In this document: piece after piece, positions 31,233-61,221 of the stretch
Layout: every line of letters starts with the position of its first letter
Position numbering within the stretch: position 1 is the stretch's first letter
Origin: Kibdelosporangium philippinense
Lineage (GTDB): Bacteria; Actinomycetota; Actinomycetes; Mycobacteriales; Pseudonocardiaceae
Reading direction: 5' to 3'
Length of the DNA: 64,000 nucleotides
Assembly: GCF_021390435.2 (NCBI RefSeq)
Contig: NZ_JAJVCN010000002.1
Location: forward strand, 124,001-188,000
The notes under the pieces: generated by a model
What the model saw: only the letters and a program-made list of their open reading frames with translations
What the model was told of the DNA's origin: nothing
The model's database searches: none
Program-made: the position numbers and the translations under genes

Positions 31233-31257
31233 GCAAGGTGCGAGGACCAATGCCACG

Positions 31258-31309
31258 CCGTGAAGGCCACCTTCGCGGCATCTAACGCGCGTAAGGAGGC
31301 CCTCGCGCA
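31258..31309. repeat. Dispersed palindromic repeat, family R1, copy 1
   Basis: A dyad module GCCGTGAAGGCCACCTTCGC is followed by ATCTAACGC and a second module AAGGAGGCCCTCGC. Read on the other strand it aligns end to end with the in-coding copy at 59151-59203. It lies just after the AlgX-like gene. Confidence 0.7.
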
Positions 31310-31447
31310 TGCCAGGAACTTAAGGTTCGGAGTTCGATCGAGACTGTAGCCGGGGGCGGGCGGTTGACCTGCGATGATCTGTGGCTGGCGTGGGTGGGGT
31401 GTGGCCGCCCGGGCGAGGGGTGCGGGCATTGCGTGACGTTCAGGGGT

Positions 31448-31497
31448 GTGAGGGCCGAGTTGGGTGCGTTGAACGCCGTGAAGGTGGCCTTCACGGC
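31448..31497. repeat. Dispersed palindromic repeat, family R1, copy 2
   Basis: GTGAGGGCC, then a short linker with GCGTTGAACGCC, then GTGAAGGTGGCCTTCACGGC. Same order and length as the copy inside soxA, opposite orientation to copy 1. The right-hand module is a near-perfect palindrome. Confidence 0.7.
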
Positions 31498-31636
31498 AGT
31501 GCGTTCCGTGGTAGGTGGGGCTGGTGTGACATGTGTGACTGACGAGGCGAATTTCTGTCCTTAATGGACCTTGAGGTGCGCGGAAGCGGTCAGCCCGCGG
31601 ACTTGGTCAAGTTCCGGCATTTGCATCTAACGCGTC

Positions 31637-31683
31637 AAAGGAGGCCCTCGCGCGTCTAACGCCGCGAAGGTGACCTTCACGGC
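31637..31683. repeat. Dispersed palindromic repeat, family R1, copy 3
   Basis: AAAGGAGGCCCTCGCG, linker GCGTCTAACGCC, then GCGAAGGTGACCTTCACGGC. The left module is inverted relative to copy 2, so modules appear able to flip. The remaining DNA of 31233-31809 contains no gene I can support. Confidence 0.65.
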
Positions 31684-31809
31684 ACAACAGTCACCCGATT
31701 GGGGAGTGCTTGCGCGTGTCGGCGCGGTGTTACCCAGATCACACACTCAACCGGCGCAGCCTCGTAGGCGTCCAAAGAACGTAAGACCCACCACCCCGAC
31801 GGAGGCCTC

Positions 31810-37676: not shown

Positions 37677-37903
37677 ACAGCGACTCCTCGTAGTGCGGAA
37701 ATCGCCCAGGCGCGCGGCAGGCTCGGTGGGGCCGCTCCCCGGTGGTGATCCACCCGAACGCCAGTCACGACCCGAGCTCCATGGTAAGGGCTGTGTCAGA
37801 CCTGAGTAGTAGCAATCGGTGAGCCGAGCAGTCCCTCGGACGGACATGAAGACCGCACTCTCGGCCGACGCGCCCGTGGCCTGCGAAGACGACCATTGAT
37901 GAC

Positions 37904-38836: not shown

Positions 38837-38864
38837 GAAGCGACAAACCCCGCCATCAGGGGCG

Positions 38865-38987
38865 CCCTTGATTTCACGTTACCGCAGGGGTACGACAATT
38901 CCGGGTTTCGCGCGCCTTGCACCGCAACAGCAATTCCCCAGGGGGACCCCTGATTTTACGATACTCCGGGGGTACGACAGTTTTGGG
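38865..38987. repeat. Dispersed repeat family R2, two partial copies
   Basis: Two related blocks in direct orientation: 38865-38905 (containing GCAGGGGTACGACAATTCCG) and 38946-38987 (containing CCGGGGGTACGACAGTTTTG). Between them is CGCAACAGCAATTCCCCAGG. The complement of 38924-38981 aligns along its length with 58417-58476 inside soxA. No gene is present in 38837-39053. Confidence 0.65.
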
Positions 38988-41744: not shown

Positions 41745-42533
41745 ATGGGGAACGAAAAGCCCGCAACAGTCCCAGCACAGTCGACACCTGTGCAGTCCGT
41801 GGACCGTGCGCTGGCGATCCTGGACATCTTGGCCATCCGAGGGGAGGCCGGGGTCACCGAGATCGCGGCCGAACTCGATGTGCACAAGTCCACGGCGTTC
41901 CGGCTGATCGGCGCACTGGAACAGCGCCGGCTGGTCGAACAGGTGGCCGAGCGCGGCAAGTACCGCCTCGGATTCGGGATCGTCCGGCTCGCCGGCGCCA
42001 CCACGGCCAGACTCGACCTGCCAAGAGAGAGCCAGCCCGTCTGCGAGCGACTCGCCAACGAGCTGGACGAGACCGTGAACGTGGCGGTCCTCGACTCCGG
42101 GCAGGCGACCAACATCATCCAGGTCTACGGCACCGCCGCCGTGACCACGAGAAACTGGATCGGGCAGAGAACCCCGCTGCACGCGACCTCAAGCGGGAAA
42201 GTCCTGCTGGCGTGGGCCGACGAAGACCAGTTGACCACCGCGATGGACACCCTGGAGCGCTACACACCTGCCACGATCACCAGCCGCTCGAAACTGCTGT
42301 CCGAACTTGACCTGATCCGCGACCGAGGGTGGAGCAGCACCAACGAGGAACTGGAGATCGGCCTGAACGCGATCGCCGCACCGGTCAGGGGCAGCAGCGG
42401 CGAAGTGATCGCCGCGGTCAGCGTTTCCGGACCGGCCTATCGGCTCACCGTCGAGTCGTTCGCGACGGTGGCCGAGAAGCTCTGCATTGGCGCGGCCGAA
42501 ATCAGTTCACGTGTGGGCTATTTCGGCGAATAG
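41745..42533 (+). CDS. IclR family transcriptional regulator (paralogue 1)
   Basis: 262 residues. A winged helix-turn-helix (about 20-85, V-Q-S-V-D-R-A-L-A-I-L then [20 protein letters not shown]) is followed by the IclR ligand domain (RTPLHATSSGKVLLAW, then GLNAIAAPVRGSSGEVIAAV). It is very similar in the DNA-binding part to the second IclR at 47290, so both may read the same operators. It is divergent from the Rieske oxygenase operon across two candidate operator copies. A likely ligand is choline, betaine or a product of the pathway. Confidence 0.92.
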   Translation: MGNEKPATVPAQSTPVQSVDRALAILDILAIRGEAGVTEIAAELDVHKSTAFRLIGALEQRRLVEQVAERGKYRLGFGIVRLAGATTARLDLPRESQPVCERLANELDETVNVAVLDSGQATNIIQVYGTAAVTTRNWIGQRTPLHATSSGKVLLAWADEDQLTTAMDTLERYTPATITSRSKLLSELDLIRDRGWSSTNEELEIGLNAIAAPVRGSSGEVIAAVSVSGPAYRLTVESFATVAEKLCIGAAEISSRVGYFGE

Positions 42534-47293: not shown

Positions 47294-48066
47294 GTGTCAA
47301 TGGCGAGAGCGGCAGCACGATCCAGTCCGTCGATCGGGCGTTGACCGTGCTGCAGCTGCTCGCCCGGTACGGCGAACTCGGCGTCACCGAGATCTCGGCC
47401 AAGCTGAAAGTGCACAAGTCGACGGCGTTCCGCCTGGTCACCACGTTGGAGCTGCACGATTTGGTCGAGCAGCACACCGATCGCGGCAAGTACCGGCTCG
47501 GCGTCGGCATTCTCCAGCTGGCCGGTGCCACCACGGCCAAGCTCGATCTGGTGCAGCGCGCGAAGCCGGTGTCCCAACGGCTTGCCGAGATCGTCGGCGA
47601 GACCGTGAACATAACGGTGTTGTCCGGGCATGAGGCGCTGTACGTCGATCAGGTCGCTGGTTCGGCGGCGCTGCAGTTGCACAACTGGGTCGGCCAGCGG
47701 ATCCCGTTGCACGCCACGTCCAACGGCAAGGTCTTGCTGGCGACCGTGTCCGGTCCCCGGTTCGACGAGCTGACGACCGGGCCTCTGAAGCGCTTCACGG
47801 ACAAGACCGTGACCAGCCGGGACGCGCTGCGCAGACAGGTCGACGAAGCACGCAACCGCGGCTACGCGGTTGCCGTCGACGAGCTTGAGGTCGGGCTCAC
47901 CGCCATCGCCGCACCAATCTGCGGTGCCGATGGAACCGTGGTTGGATCGATCAGTGCATCAGGGCCCGGATTCCGCATTACCGCAGATCGGATACCGGAT
48001 GTTGCCGCCAAAGTGGTGGCCGCCGGACGGGATGTGTCCCGCCGTCTGGGATGGCATGGCCACTAG
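47290..48066 (+). CDS. IclR family transcriptional regulator (paralogue 2)
   Basis: 258 residues. Helix-turn-helix near [20 protein letters not shown] and IclR ligand domain ([19 protein letters not shown], then [20 protein letters not shown]). It is cotranscribed with and coupled to the choline dehydrogenase-like gene and closely related to the IclR at 41745. It probably controls the betaine genes through the shared 17-bp motif, acting with or against paralogue 1. Confidence 0.92.
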
Positions 48067-56536: not shown

Positions 56537-57739
56537 ATGGAGCACCCCGACTGGCTCTGGCGCACTCCGGAGCCGAAGAAGTCCTATGACGTCATCATTG
56601 TCGGCGCCGGCGGCCATGGCCTGGCCACGGCGTACTACCTTGCGAAAAACCACGGCATCACGAACGTGGCCGTGCTGGAAAAGGGCTGGCTGGCAGGCGG
56701 GAACATGGCCCGCAACACCACGATCATCCGGTCCAACTACCTGTGGGACGAGAGCGCGGCGATCTACGAGCACGCGCTGAAACTGTGGGAAGGCCTGCAG
56801 GAGGACCTGGAGTACGACTTCCTGTTCAGCCAGCGCGGCGTGCTCAACCTCGCGCACACGCTGCAGGACATCCGGGAGGGCACGCGGCGCGTCAACGCCA
56901 ACCGCCTCAACGGCGTCGACGGCGAATGGCTCACGCCGGACGAGGTCGCCAAGGTCTGCCCGATCGTCAACATCTCGCCGGACGTGCGGTATCCCGTGCT
57001 CGGCGGAACATGGCAGCCGCGCGCCGGGATCGCCAAACATGACTACGTGGCCTGGGCTTTCGCGCGTAAGGCCGACCGGTACGGCGTCGATCTGATCCAG
57101 AACTGCGAGGTCACGGGCTTCATCACGGACGGCAACCGGGTGACCGGCGTGCAGACGAATCGTGGCCCGATCCTGGCCGGTCGCGTTGGACTCGCGGCCG
57201 CCGGTCACTCCAGCGTGCTCGCGTCCACCTTGGGCATCCGGCTGCCGCTGCAAAGCCATCCCTTGCAAGCGCTTGTTTCGGAGCTCTTGGAACCCGTACA
57301 CCCGACCGTGGTCATGTCGAACCACGTGCATGTCTACGTCAGCCAGGCGCACAAGGGCGAACTGGTGATGGGCGCGGGCATCGACTCGTACAACTCCTAT
57401 GGCCAGCGCGGTTCGGTGCACGTGATCGAGCAGCAGATGGCCGCGGCCTTGGAACTGTTCCCGATCTTCGCGCGGGCGCACCTGATCCGGACGTGGGGCG
57501 GGATCGTGGACGTCACGCCGGACGCGTCGCCGATCATCGGCCGCACCCCGGTGGAGAACCTGTTCGTCAACTGCGGCTGGGGAACCGGCGGTTTCAAGGC
57601 CACGCCAGGCGTTGGCTGGGTCTTCGCGCACACGTTGGCGCACGGCGAGCCGCACGCGTTGAACGAACCTTTCACCCTTGAGCGCTTCACCTCGGGCGCT
57701 TTGATCGACGAACACGGCGCCGCGGCCGTCGCACACTGA
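56537..57739 (+). CDS. soxB: Sarcosine oxidase beta subunit
   Basis: 400 residues, full length for SoxB. FAD motif [31 protein letters not shown] carries H168 at the position that binds FMN covalently in heterotetrameric sarcosine oxidases; C-terminal [18 protein letters not shown] and [13 protein letters not shown]. It holds the active site for sarcosine demethylation. It starts two bases after the DMGO stop. Confidence 0.95.
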
Positions 57740-57747
57740 GGAGAGGC

Positions 57748-57990
57748 ATGCTGCTGATCAGTTGTCCCTGGTGCGGCGAGCGCGAGGAGACCGAGTTCCA
57801 CTACGGCGGTGAGGCTTTCGTCGCCTACCCCGCCGACCCCGATTCACTGTCCGATGAGGAATGGGCGCAGTACGTGTTCTTCCGTGACAACCCCAAAGGC
57901 GACTTCGCCGAGCGATGGGTGCACACCGCCGGGTGCCGCCGCTGGTTCAACACCGTCCGCAACACCGTGACCAGCGAGTTCACGTCATGA
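57748..57990 (+). CDS. soxD: Sarcosine oxidase delta subunit
   Basis: 80 residues. Zinc ligands C6 and C9 (SCPWCG) and H59 and C63 (VHTAGCRRWF) sit exactly at the positions used in characterised SoxD. Small structural subunit of the tetramer. The stop overlaps the soxA ATG as ATGA. Confidence 0.95.
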   Translation: MLLISCPWCGEREETEFHYGGEAFVAYPADPDSLSDEEWAQYVFFRDNPKGDFAERWVHTAGCRRWFNTVRNTVTSEFTS

Positions 57991-60689
57991 GGCTGTCAGA
58001 GGGCGGCTCCATTGACCGCACGAAACCGCTGCACTTCACCCTGGATGACGTCTCCTACACCGGATTCGAGGGCGACACGCTCGCTTCGGCCATGCTCGCC
58101 AACGGGATTATCGAGGTCGCGCCTTCGCTGTACAAACACCGGCCGCGCGGGGTTTTCGCTGCTGGCGTGGAGGAGCCGAACGCGCTCGTCCAGGTCGGCT
58201 CGGAGCCTTCACTGCAGGCGATGACCGTCAAATTGACCGACGGCCTGGTCGCGCGCACGCTGTCCGGGATCGGCCGCCTCACGGCGGATCCCGAGGAACC
58301 CAGGTACGACAAGCGTTTCACGCACACGGACGTCCTGGTGATCGGCGCGGGCCCGGCGGGCCGGACGGCAGCGAAGACGGCCGCATCGGGTGGCGCCAGA
58401 GTCATCCTCGTAAAAATGTCGTACCCCTCCGGTAACGTTAAATTCAGGGGGACCCCCTCGGGAATTGCTGTTGCGGAAGAGGCTGGCGAGCTGCGGATAC
58501 TGCACGGGGCCACGGCTTTTGGGTATTACGACAGCAACTACGTGCTCGTGGCGCAGCACCAAACCTTGTGGCACATCAGGGCGCGCCGCGTGATCCTGGC
58601 GACCGGCGCGCACGAGCAGCCGATCGTGTTCGAGAACAACGACCGCCCCGGGATCATGCTGGCTGGCGCGGTTCGCACGTACATCACGAAGTACGCGGTC
58701 CTGCCCGGCCGTAAAGTCGTTGTCTTCACCACGAACGACAGCGCCTACGGGACCGTGGCCGCACTGGTCCAAGCCGGTGCCGAGGTGACAGTCGTCGACT
58801 CGCGGCCAACGCCGCCGGACCTGGCCCCCAAGGGTGTCGAGGTGATCAGTGGCGTGATCACCAATACCGAGGGCTCCGGACGGATCACGGCCGTGTCTAC
58901 AGAGGACCGGCGGATCGAGTGCGATCTGCTTGCGGTGTCTGGTGGTTGGCAGCCCGCGGTCCACCTGTTCAGCCAGTCCCGTGGCACGCTGCGGTGGAAC
59001 GGCCAAGCGTTTGTTCCGGACCAGGCGGCGCAGGCGAACCGGGTGATCGGCGCGGCGAACGGCACGTTCAACCTCGAAGCAGCCTTGATCGAGGCCGCCG
59101 AGGCAGGCGCCGAAGCCGCGAACCTGGTGGGCTACCCCGTGCCAGACTCGGCTGTGAGGGCCTCTTTTGGTGCGTCAGACGCCGGTAAGGTGGCCTTCAC
59201 GGCACATCCAGTCCTCCTTGTGCCAGGCAACCCGCAGACCCAATTCGTCGACCTGCAGCGTGATGCCACAGTGGCAGACGTCCAGCGCGCAGTGGCCGCA
59301 GGTATGCGTTCCCCCGAACACGTGAAGCGATACACAACCATCGGCACCGGAGCCGACCAGGGCCGAACTTCGAACATCCCAGCCCTCGGCGTCATCGCGG
59401 CAATCCTGGACACGACCCCGGGCGAGCTCGGCACCACAACCTTCCGGGCCCCCAGCGTCCCGGTCTCCTTCGCCCTGATGGCAGGCCGGGACCGAGGCAA
59501 ACTGCACGATCCCGTTCGCACAACACCCATCCACAGCTGGCATGTCCGCCACACAGCGGAGTTCGAGAACGTCGGCCAGTGGAAGCGCCCCTGGTTCTAC
59601 CCTCGGGAAAACGAGGACATGGAAGCCGCGGTCCTGCGGGAATGCCATGCGGCCAGGACCGGCGTCGGCATGCAGGACGCGAGCACTCTCGGCAAGATCG
59701 AGGTAGTCGGCACGGACGCGGGCGAGTTCCTGAACCGCATGTACACCAACGCTTTCAAGAAGCTGGCCGTCGGCTCAGCGCGATACGGGCTCATGTGCAA
59801 AGCCGACGGCATGGTCTTCGACGACGGCGTGACCATGCGCCTGGCCGACGACAGGTACTACGTCACGACCACCACCGGCGGCGCGGCGAACGTGCTGGAC
59901 TGGTTCGAGGAGTGGTCCCAGACCGAGTGGCCTGAGCTGGACGTCCGGTTCACCTCGGTGACCGAGCAGTGGTCAACGATCGCGGTCGTCGGCCCGCAGT
60001 CCCGCGCGGTGATCGGCCTGGTGGCGCCAGAACTCGACGTGTCCAACGACGCCTTCCCGTTCATGACTTTCCGGGAAACGACACTGGTCAACGGCATCCC
60101 TGCGCGAATCGCCCGCATCTCGTTCTCCGGCGAACTGGCCTTCGAGGTCAACGTCGCCAGCTGGTACGGCCTCGCGGCGTGGGAAGCGATCTACGAGGAA
60201 GGCAAGCCGTACGACATCACGCCATACGGCACCGAAACCATGCACGTTCTCCGGGCGGAGAAGGGTTTCCCGATCGTCGGCCAGGACACCGACGGCACGG
60301 TCACCCCGCATGACCTGGGCATGTCGTGGATCGTGTCCAAGCAGAAGCATTTCGTGGGCAAGCGCTCGCTCAGTCGGCCGGACACCGCCCGGCCCGACCG
60401 CAAGCACCTGGTCGGCCTGCTGCCGGTCGACCCGACGGCGCTGTTGCCAGAAGGCGCCCAAATGATCGCCGAGGGCACCGACCTCACCCCGCCGGTCCCG
60501 ATGGAAGGGCACGTGACCTCGAGTTATCGCAGTGCGGCCTTGGAACGCACGTTCGCGCTCGCGTTGATCCGCAACGGCCGTAACCGGATCGGCGAAACAC
60601 TGTTGGCGCCGCTTGGCGACCGCGTGATCGCCGCGACGGTGACCGAGCCGGTGTTCTACGACAAGGAAGGTGCCCGTCGTGACGGTTGA
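57987..60689 (+). CDS. soxA: Sarcosine oxidase alpha subunit, interrupted by two dispersed repeats
   Basis: 900 residues from the ATG at 57987; typical SoxA has about 960-1000. An N-terminal small domain (FTLDDVSYTGFEGDTLASAM) precedes an NAD/FAD domain with VLVIGAGPAGRTAAKTAA and a C-terminal folate-binding GcvT domain (from about residue 510). After ARVILV, the residues MSYPSGNVKFRGTPSGIAVA come from a dispersed repeat and replace the usual acidic end of the second beta strand and the GGxLL region. Residues SAVRASFGASDAGKVAFTA come from a second repeat in the linker. The frame is intact. Activity of the alpha NAD/FAD site is uncertain. Confidence 0.9.
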   Translation: MRLSEGGSIDRTKPLHFTLDDVSYTGFEGDTLASAMLANGIIEVAPSLYKHRPRGVFAAGVEEPNALVQVGSEPSLQAMTVKLTDGLVARTLSGIGRLTADPEEPRYDKRFTHTDVLVIGAGPAGRTAAKTAASGGARVILVKMSYPSGNVKFRGTPSGIAVAEEAGELRILHGATAFGYYDSNYVLVAQHQTLWHIRARRVILATGAHEQPIVFENNDRPGIMLAGAVRTYITKYAVLPGRKVVVFTTNDSAYGTVAALVQAGAEVTVVDSRPTPPDLAPKGVEVISGVITNTEGSGRITAVSTEDRRIECDLLAVSGGWQPAVHLFSQSRGTLRWNGQAFVPDQAAQANRVIGAANGTFNLEAALIEAAEAGAEAANLVGYPVPDSAVRASFGASDAGKVAFTAHPVLLVPGNPQTQFVDLQRDATVADVQRAVAAGMRSPEHVKRYTTIGTGADQGRTSNIPALGVIAAILDTTPGELGTTTFRAPSVPVSFALMAGRDRGKLHDPVRTTPIHSWHVRHTAEFENVGQWKRPWFYPRENEDMEAAVLRECHAARTGVGMQDASTLGKIEVVGTDAGEFLNRMYTNAFKKLAVGSARYGLMCKADGMVFDDGVTMRLADDRYYVTTTTGGAANVLDWFEEWSQTEWPELDVRFTSVTEQWSTIAVVGPQSRAVIGLVAPELDVSNDAFPFMTFRETTLVNGIPARIARISFSGELAFEVNVASWYGLAAWEAIYEEGKPYDITPYGTETMHVLRAEKGFPIVGQDTDGTVTPHDLGMSWIVSKQKHFVGKRSLSRPDTARPDRKHLVGLLPVDPTALLPEGAQMIAEGTDLTPPVPMEGHVTSSYRSAALERTFALALIRNGRNRIGETLLAPLGDRVIAATVTEPVFYDKEGARRDG
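58417..58476 (+). repeat. Repeat family R2 copy inside soxA
   Basis: About 60 bases (starting TGTCGTACCCCTCCGG and ending GGAATTGCTGTTGCGG) aligned with the complement of the intergenic copy at 38924-38981. It is read in frame in soxA as a 20-residue segment immediately after the first Rossmann strands. Confidence 0.7.
59151..59203 (+). repeat. Repeat family R1 copy inside soxA
   Basis: GCTGTGAGGGCCTCTTTTGG, then TGCGTCAGACGCC, then GGTAAGGTGGCCTTCACGGC. Same module order and length as the complement of 31258-31309 and as 31448-31497. It is read in frame as part of the linker before the PVLLVPGN segment. Confidence 0.7.
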
Positions 60690-61221
60690 ATCACTCCGTC
60701 GTAGCCCGCTGGCGGACTACCCGGGCATCACCGAGATTCCGTTCCTGACCATGGTCAACGTCCGGGTCATGCCGACAAGCGACGCCGCCGCCAGGATCTG
60801 CGCGAGGCTTGGCGGCCCGTTGCCGGTGGTGCCGAACTCCGTGGTGGAAGCCGGTTCCCGGCACATCCTCTGGCTCGGCCCGGACGAGTGGCTCGTGGTC
60901 GGCCCGGACGGCGACGCGGAACTGCCCGGGCTGCTGCAGGAGCCATCAGCGTCCATTGTGGACGTATCGGCGAACCGGACGACGATCGAAGTGCGCAGCC
61001 GTGACCTGTTGGAACACGGCTGCACGCTGGACCTGCACCCGAGGGCGTTCCATGCTGGCCGGTGCGCGCAGACCACGATCGCCCGGACCCAGGTGATCCT
61101 CTGGCAGACGTCGGACGAGCCGGTCTATCGCTTGCTCGTGCGCGGCTCGTTCGCGACCTACCTTGCCGACTGGTTGTCCGACGGCAGCTCGACAACCGGA
61201 AGCACGTCGTCGATCGGCTGA
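60679..61221 (+). CDS. soxG: Sarcosine oxidase gamma subunit
   Basis: 180 residues from the GTG at 60679, eight bases after AAGGAAGG; a GTG at 60670 is too close to that site. SoxG pattern: EIPFLTMVNVRVMP, LWLGPDEWLVVGPDGD, VDVSANRTTIEV and LDLHPRAFH. Related to the folate-binding domain of GcvT. It completes the soxBDAG tetramer and overlaps the soxA end by 11 bases. Confidence 0.93.
   Translation: MTVESLRRSPLADYPGITEIPFLTMVNVRVMPTSDAAARICARLGGPLPVVPNSVVEAGSRHILWLGPDEWLVVGPDGDAELPGLLQEPSASIVDVSANRTTIEVRSRDLLEHGCTLDLHPRAFHAGRCAQTTIARTQVILWQTSDEPVYRLLVRGSFATYLADWLSDGSSTTGSTSSIG

Follow-up and report, generated by a model that had tools for sequence, protein, structure and literature searches.

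Short dispersed repeats that are read as parts of proteins are known from Rickettsia, where the Rickettsia palindromic elements (RPE), 105-146 bp in length and forming long stem-loops (PMC2229807), are reported in the relevant passages of PMC2229807 and PMC10969869 to lie both between genes and fused in frame within conserved protein genes, where they are tolerated. In the passages of PMC10969869 that deal with the subject, in-frame fusion of repeats into protein genes is described in several bacteria, most strikingly Rickettsia, and intragenic in-frame fusions of miniature inverted-repeat transposable elements (MITEs) are termed not unusual; reference titles point to coding palindromes in Wolbachia and M. 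jannaschii as well. Repetitive extragenic palindromic (REP) elements are typically intergenic, carry a GTAG or CGTC end tag and have an associated RAYT transposase. PMC3733652 gives their length as 20-40 bp. Here we describe a comparable situation in a stretch of 64,000 nucleotides of Kibdelosporangium philippinense (contig NZ_JAJVCN010000002.1, positions 124,001 to 188,000; hereafter the window), which belongs to a genome of 12.05 Mb in 8 contigs. Within it, soxA, the gene for the alpha subunit of sarcosine oxidase, carries two dispersed repeats, R1 and R2, in one open frame. At the level of titles and abstract openings, we found no literature on repeats inside Kibdelosporangium genes.

In profiles built from genomic copies, R2 is an element of 76 bases and R1 is nearly palindromic and about 52 bases long. 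By analogy, the two families resemble an RPE-like situation in an actinobacterium, as both are dispersed and one or both are found in frame in soxA, a biotin carboxylase gene, a flavin adenine dinucleotide (FAD)/Fe-S oxidoreductase gene and the adenylation domain of a nonribosomal peptide synthetase (NRPS). However, they are shorter than the RPE lengths given in the passages cited above, and the host has a 12 Mb genome. RPE form long stem-loops; R2 shows a weak consensus fold only (RNA fold z -0.85 and 0.10; the consensus fold of 123 copies is a stem of three pairs), and R1, a near-palindrome, has z values of -3.0 for the consensus and -3.6 for the soxA copy. R2 also occurs in runs of two to four copies inside a coding gene, of which the RPE passages of PMC2229807 and PMC10969869 make no mention. 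R1 recalls REP elements in being near-palindromic, mostly intergenic, scarce between divergent genes and frequent between convergent ones, although it is longer than the length given for REP in PMC3733652. Both families are small and appear non-autonomous, and R1 has inverted ends, as in MITEs; unlike MITEs, no target duplication was seen by eye at the one clean R1 insertion, in the oxidoreductase gene, and no parent transposon was found, DUF222 being the sole candidate origin searched.

The first-pass annotation of this DNA had proposed that soxA contains a block matching an intergenic repeat near 38.9 kb and another matching repeats at 31.3-31.7 kb, both in frame, and self-comparison of the window and the profiles agree on this. 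R2 at 38922-38984 matches 58412-58476 in soxA (83%, E 2e-9), and R1 at 31444-31498 and 31257-31304 matches its soxA copy (82%, E 9e-8, and 83%, E 1e-6, respectively); both soxA copies lie in a single open frame, 57915-60689, with a likely start at 57987. In the whole genome, at least 43 matches to R2 reach E<=1e-3, 40 of the 47 candidates having been scored, and a search for the R1 arm that tolerated one mismatch gave 245 matches compared with 0 for a reversed control, although one element may yield two arm matches. Given these numbers, the matches are not due to chance, and none of the repeat-free homologues compared carried the same residues. R2 is present in all of the congeneric genomes in which soxA was read, six of which were named by letter-for-letter identity over 600 bases of the soxA locus: 42 matches in Kibdelosporangium aridum (G005), 12 in K. 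persicum (G001), 12 in K. banguiense (G007), 13 in G002, 8 in Actinosynnema sp. ALI-1.44 (G003), 49 in Rhodococcus rhodnii NRRL B-16535 (G004) and 2 in Actinocrispum wychmicini (G006). These seven genomes and the one studied here (G000) form our comparison set of eight. The record names of G003 and G004 seem wrong; their soxA genes (loci L171 and L175) contain R2 at this place and share 83% and 89% identity, respectively, with the gene studied here. When up to three candidates were scored per genome, R2 was detected at E 1e-5 in 19 of 297 family genomes, namely all eight of the genus and eleven others, in which the matches are all confined to the first 54 bases of the element. Across Pseudonocardiaceae the R1 arm has a patchy distribution, with 245 matches here, 0-13 in congeners, and 358 and 365 in a pair of genomes from a different genus.

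Both families are mostly intergenic. Placement was scored in a non-random sample of 1.63 Mb, made up of the window and 80 stretches around listed copies, with genes called by an in-house script based on coding potential, which put the coding fraction at 0.83. Among the matches listed, 106 of 113 distinct R1 elements are intergenic, 4 lie partly over a gene end and 3 are inside genes; for R2 the corresponding numbers are 46, 2 and 2 of 50. In 80 stretches of the seven other genomes, sampled without soxA, the carboxylase gene and two small-contig places of G004, the 106 R2 elements among the matches listed lie between genes in 100 cases, partly over a gene in 4 and inside genes in 2, and no R1 was found at E 1e-3. 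R2 has convergent neighbours in 23/50 cases and divergent ones in 5/50, the two in-gene copies included. Of 108 R1 elements, 32 lie between convergent genes and 15 between divergent ones; since divergent gaps hold 28% of intergenic bases, R1 is scarce there. Neither repeat has an Rfam match at gathering score in the window or in loci L109, L104, L094 and L093, and a structured-RNA identity for R2 was rejected on its weak consensus fold and the absence of an Rfam match at R2 in these five sources. Searches of viral and plasmid sequences, one of them with an exact core pattern, gave no match for R2 on plasmids, phages or viral contigs. An origin of R2 from DUF222/HNH genes (13E12-type) was also rejected: the 5' motif occurs in the start region of only 2/39 DUF222 loci, one of which is not R2-like. 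In this genome, one DUF222 gene (L083) has an R2-like start upstream of it (E 0.018).

R2 occupies identical soxA codons in seven of the eight genomes, so its presence in the gene is likely to be old. The exception is Actinocrispum, where that place holds a short connector without R2 and where neither profile scored better than E 0.3 across the loci scanned; outgroups have a native loop there, between matching flanks. Six of the seven soxA copies share a base that departs from the family consensus, and for six of seven, the exception being that of K. banguiense, the closest of the 143 other elements retained likewise comes from soxA. Both observations fit a single old insertion. The acidic residue, which presumably contacts the ribose of nicotinamide adenine dinucleotide (NAD), and the GG loop that normally occupy this region are absent from SoxA in all eight genomes, including repeat-free Actinocrispum (locus L173). 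In a wider alignment, which took 45 of 53 loci, they are found in 0/7 Kibdelosporangium/Actinocrispum rows, compared with 39/39 (acid) and 37/39 (GG) of other SoxA proteins, as the first-pass annotation had held. One of its two options, that the repeat had inactivated the NAD site, is not supported, since both features are also absent in Actinocrispum, which lacks R2 in soxA. In the soxA tree, Actinocrispum branches first (support of 89 for the node of the other seven and 100 for that of all eight). Because this first-branching lineage lacks the acidic residue, the GG loop and the soxA copy of R2, and has only two R2 matches genome-wide, the NAD-site loop was probably lost before R2 arrived. 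The idea that repeats moved into a coding gene is thus borne out by the native loop, or for R1 an unrelated linker, between matching flanks in relatives, except that the loss of the loop is probably not part of that event. SoxA is indeed short, within the proposed 60-100 residues (900 residues, 93 below the median of 993 in 39 other SoxA proteins), but only about 12 of these are missing at the R2 place. Most of the difference falls in three further loops that are reduced genus-wide, and the shortness thus has, for the most part, nothing to do with the repeats.

By contrast with R2, R1 is present in soxA of this genome only. It replaces a proline-rich linker and lengthens the protein by 5 residues relative to the seven congeners, which carry an unrelated linker between matching flanks. 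It is surrounded by a tract of very high synonymous divergence, again confined to this genome. Both sister strains have a different base at 42 of its 60 four-fold sites, a density reached in 0 of 10000 permutations. After R1, the protein stays alike (dN, the non-synonymous rate, 0.070 and 0.085 against the two sisters) and the synonymous rate, dS, is 1.31 and 1.51. No close donor for 59206-59560 was found in 390 family genomes with two candidates scored per genome, the best being congeners at 76-79%. The idea that R1 insertions generally provoke hypermutation around them was rejected, as the R1-bearing oxidoreductase gene has no comparable tract.

The same repeats are read in other genes. R2 lies antisense and in frame in a gene whose product is a biotin carboxylase that also has a biotinyl domain; the repeat immediately precedes the C-terminal domain of the carboxylase. 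The gene holds one copy in this genome, G003 and G007, two in G004 and G002, three in G001 and four in G005; none was found in Actinocrispum. The periods of these runs (102, 123, 111, 111, 102, 105 and 126) are multiples of three in 7/7 cases, as against 10/33 elsewhere. Further copies of R2 are found sense and in frame in the NRPS adenylation domain of K. aridum (L269:3956-4023, + strand) and antisense in a phage-tail-sheath-like gene of K. banguiense (L276:4057-4102). R1 is a clean insertion in the FAD/Fe-S oxidoreductase gene of this genome (L117:10002-10053, - strand), in the reading frame used in soxA, and is absent from all six aligned homologues, the nearest two of which are 79% identical; it also lies antisense in one protein of this genome without a Pfam match. 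The two R2 reading frames in use are those most often open, in 112/123 and 108/123 copies outside soxA and the carboxylase gene.

The codons flanking R2 are under purifying selection, with ratios of non-synonymous to synonymous differences (pN/pS) of 0.20 in soxA and 0.15 in the carboxylase gene, and outside the repeats soxA has a dN/dS of 0.05-0.22 against its two sisters (0.09-0.13 in the folate domain). With the frame open, these values are consistent with the first-pass view that the segments were tolerated as new peptide. Within R2, pN/pS is 0.92 in soxA and 1.04 in the carboxylase gene, from pooled pairs that are not independent and inserts that are short. Synonymous differences are nonetheless fewer in R2 than in its flanks (pS 0.225 compared with 0.427 in soxA and 0.170 compared with 0.442 in the carboxylase gene, with non-overlapping intervals), and four-fold flank divergence exceeds R2 divergence in 21/21 pairs for soxA and 21/21 for the last carboxylase copy. 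Since pN/pS is near 1 and yet pS is about half that of the flanks or less, the pattern is suggestive of conservation of R2 in genes as DNA rather than as peptide. Gene conversion was rejected as the main force behind the likeness of in-gene R2 copies, as these are nearer to the same gene elsewhere (0.81 in soxA, 0.81 in the carboxylase gene) than to other copies of their own genome (0.77 and 0.74). An AlphaFold model of SoxA from 46 sequences (mean predicted local distance difference test score, pLDDT, 86.7; predicted TM-score 0.58) is least confident inside the two repeats: the two longest stretches with pLDDT<50, residues 146-166 and 396-400, fall within R2 and R1, and a third, 506-508, lies outside both. 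The nearest solved chains are 1vrq_A and 2gag_A, with which SoxA aligns over nearly its full length at 51-52% identity in the structure-based match; unlike these alpha subunits, it lacks the acid and GG loop, as does the whole genus, and carries two repeat-derived segments. The best structural match, 1vrq_A, has a whole-chain TM-score of 0.51 and root-mean-square deviation of 13.8; the model thus fails to reproduce how the domains are arranged relative to one another.

Taken together, we consider it probable that two dispersed, mostly intergenic repeats occasionally land in genes, and that the survivors are those in frame, in loops or linkers. In such a scenario, the NAD-site loop of the alpha subunit would already have disappeared in the ancestor shared with Actinocrispum; R2 would then have entered the leftover connector of soxA before the Kibdelosporangium radiation; and R1 would have reached the linker that precedes the folate domain much later, in this strain only. 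The enzyme would have stayed under selection while carrying both segments as flexible loops, and inside genes R2 would evolve as a DNA element, with selection or copying acting on its letters. Several points weigh against this reconstruction. A mobilising enzyme was not found, with DUF222 as the sole candidate origin searched, and comparison with orthologues covers the in-gene cases of soxA, the carboxylase gene and the oxidoreductase gene. That the loss came before the insertion hangs on one repeat-free lineage, Actinocrispum, which may have lost R2 secondarily, and on the node of 89. The seven carboxylase periods are not independent, some being probably shared by descent. Low pLDDT is expected anyway with few aligned relatives, and the R1 segment is only partly below 50. 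The case for constraint on the DNA comes from 23-24 codons in each gene, and the ratios have wide intervals (0.47-2.68 and 0.57-2.67).

As R1 substitutes native linker residues instead of simply interrupting them, and the surrounding 480 bases or so are oddly diverged, R1 may have arrived with an imported tract. Homologous import of about 500 bases from an unsampled relative, rather than insertion in this lineage, is a possibility that we regard as less likely than not: it is also favoured by the oxidoreductase gene, which bears R1 without a comparable tract, whereas the search of family genomes gave no donor and, within the genus, R1 is abundant in this genome only. It is unlikely that the R2 insertion itself deleted the acid and GG loop in the ancestor of all eight genomes and that Actinocrispum later lost the repeat, a history in line with the first-pass annotation. 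The replaced segment does largely coincide with R2, and the Actinocrispum connector is even shorter, as would be expected after a deletion running through the repeat; however, this history requires an extra event, and Actinocrispum has almost no R2 in its genome (2 matches as against 8-49) and none in its carboxylase gene. Decay of soxA in this strain, with repeats gathering in a failing gene, seems very improbable. Two repeats in one gene, a TIGR01372 score below cut-off and a terminal branch three times as long as those of the sisters (0.151 compared with 0.051 and 0.050; those of G006 and G007 are longer) would agree with it, but the frame is open, soxB, soxD and soxG are present, dN/dS outside the repeats is low, and a large share of the added divergence consists of synonymous changes and falls in one tract.

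Whether the repeat peptides serve the enzymes is a separate question. That they are adaptive parts, such as flexible linkers tuned by copy number, would accord with the retention of R2 in two genes of 7/7 Kibdelosporangium-type genomes and with the range of 1-4 copies in the junction that leads into the biotin carboxylase C-terminal domain; with pN/pS about 1 in both genes and low model confidence at R2 in SoxA, we find this quite implausible. More speculatively, and with considerable reservation, R2 could be a maintained chromosomal DNA site, for example one bound by a protein, whose letters are preserved even in genes, where it is carried as peptide and, in the carboxylase, multiplies like a coding satellite. 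In Rickettsia, genome decay provides an easy excuse for such insertions, whereas the hosts here are two metabolic enzymes of a 12 Mb actinobacterium, in 7/7 Kibdelosporangium-type genomes. With a relative that lacks the repeat, reading in both directions and copy numbers that rise from one to four, it becomes testable whether segments of this kind are neutral passengers, useful linkers or DNA sites maintained for some other purpose.

Table 1 Positions of the repeats, their host genes and the sarcosine oxidase genes (window coordinates unless a locus is given)
Feature	Position	Strand	Basis or remark
R2 in soxA, sense, residues 143-167	58413..58487	+	profile match E 7e-19
R1 in soxA, near-palindrome, residues 390-407	59154..59205	+	profile match E 7.5e-13
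R2, intergenic copy	38912..38983	-	profile match E 5.5e-19
R2, second intergenic copy, partial (profile positions 2-47)	38856..38900	-	profile match E 2.5e-10; 11-base spacer
R1, intergenic copy	31256..31304	-	profile match E 2e-12
R1, intergenic copy	31448..31498	+	profile match E 1e-14
R1, intergenic copy, partial	31647..31685	+	profile match E 5e-10
Tract of very high synonymous divergence around R1, this genome only	59040..59517	+	four-fold sites
Biotin carboxylase gene with R2	L109:8997-10835	-	relatives' loci L224-L231
soxB, beta subunit	56537..57739	+	TIGR01373, 654 bits, above curated cut-off of 529
soxD, delta subunit	57748..57990	+	PF04267
soxA, alpha subunit, 900 aa, host of R1 and R2	57987..60689	+	TIGR01372, Pfam domains
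soxG, gamma subunit	60670..61221	+	PF04268; TIGR01375, 99 bits, below cut-off of 144

The soxA product scores 1115 bits against TIGR01372 (cut-off 1164) and has the expected Pfam domains, Fer2_4, Pyr_redox_2, SO_alpha_A3, GCV_T and GCV_T_C. The two Rfam matches in the five sources, both away from the repeats, are a tRNA and a ZTP riboswitch; the ZMP/ZTP riboswitch (RF01750) lies at 37697-37778 of the window on the - strand. The window also contains a duplicated stretch of 364 bases, 41849-42212 and 47379-47742, at 70% identity.

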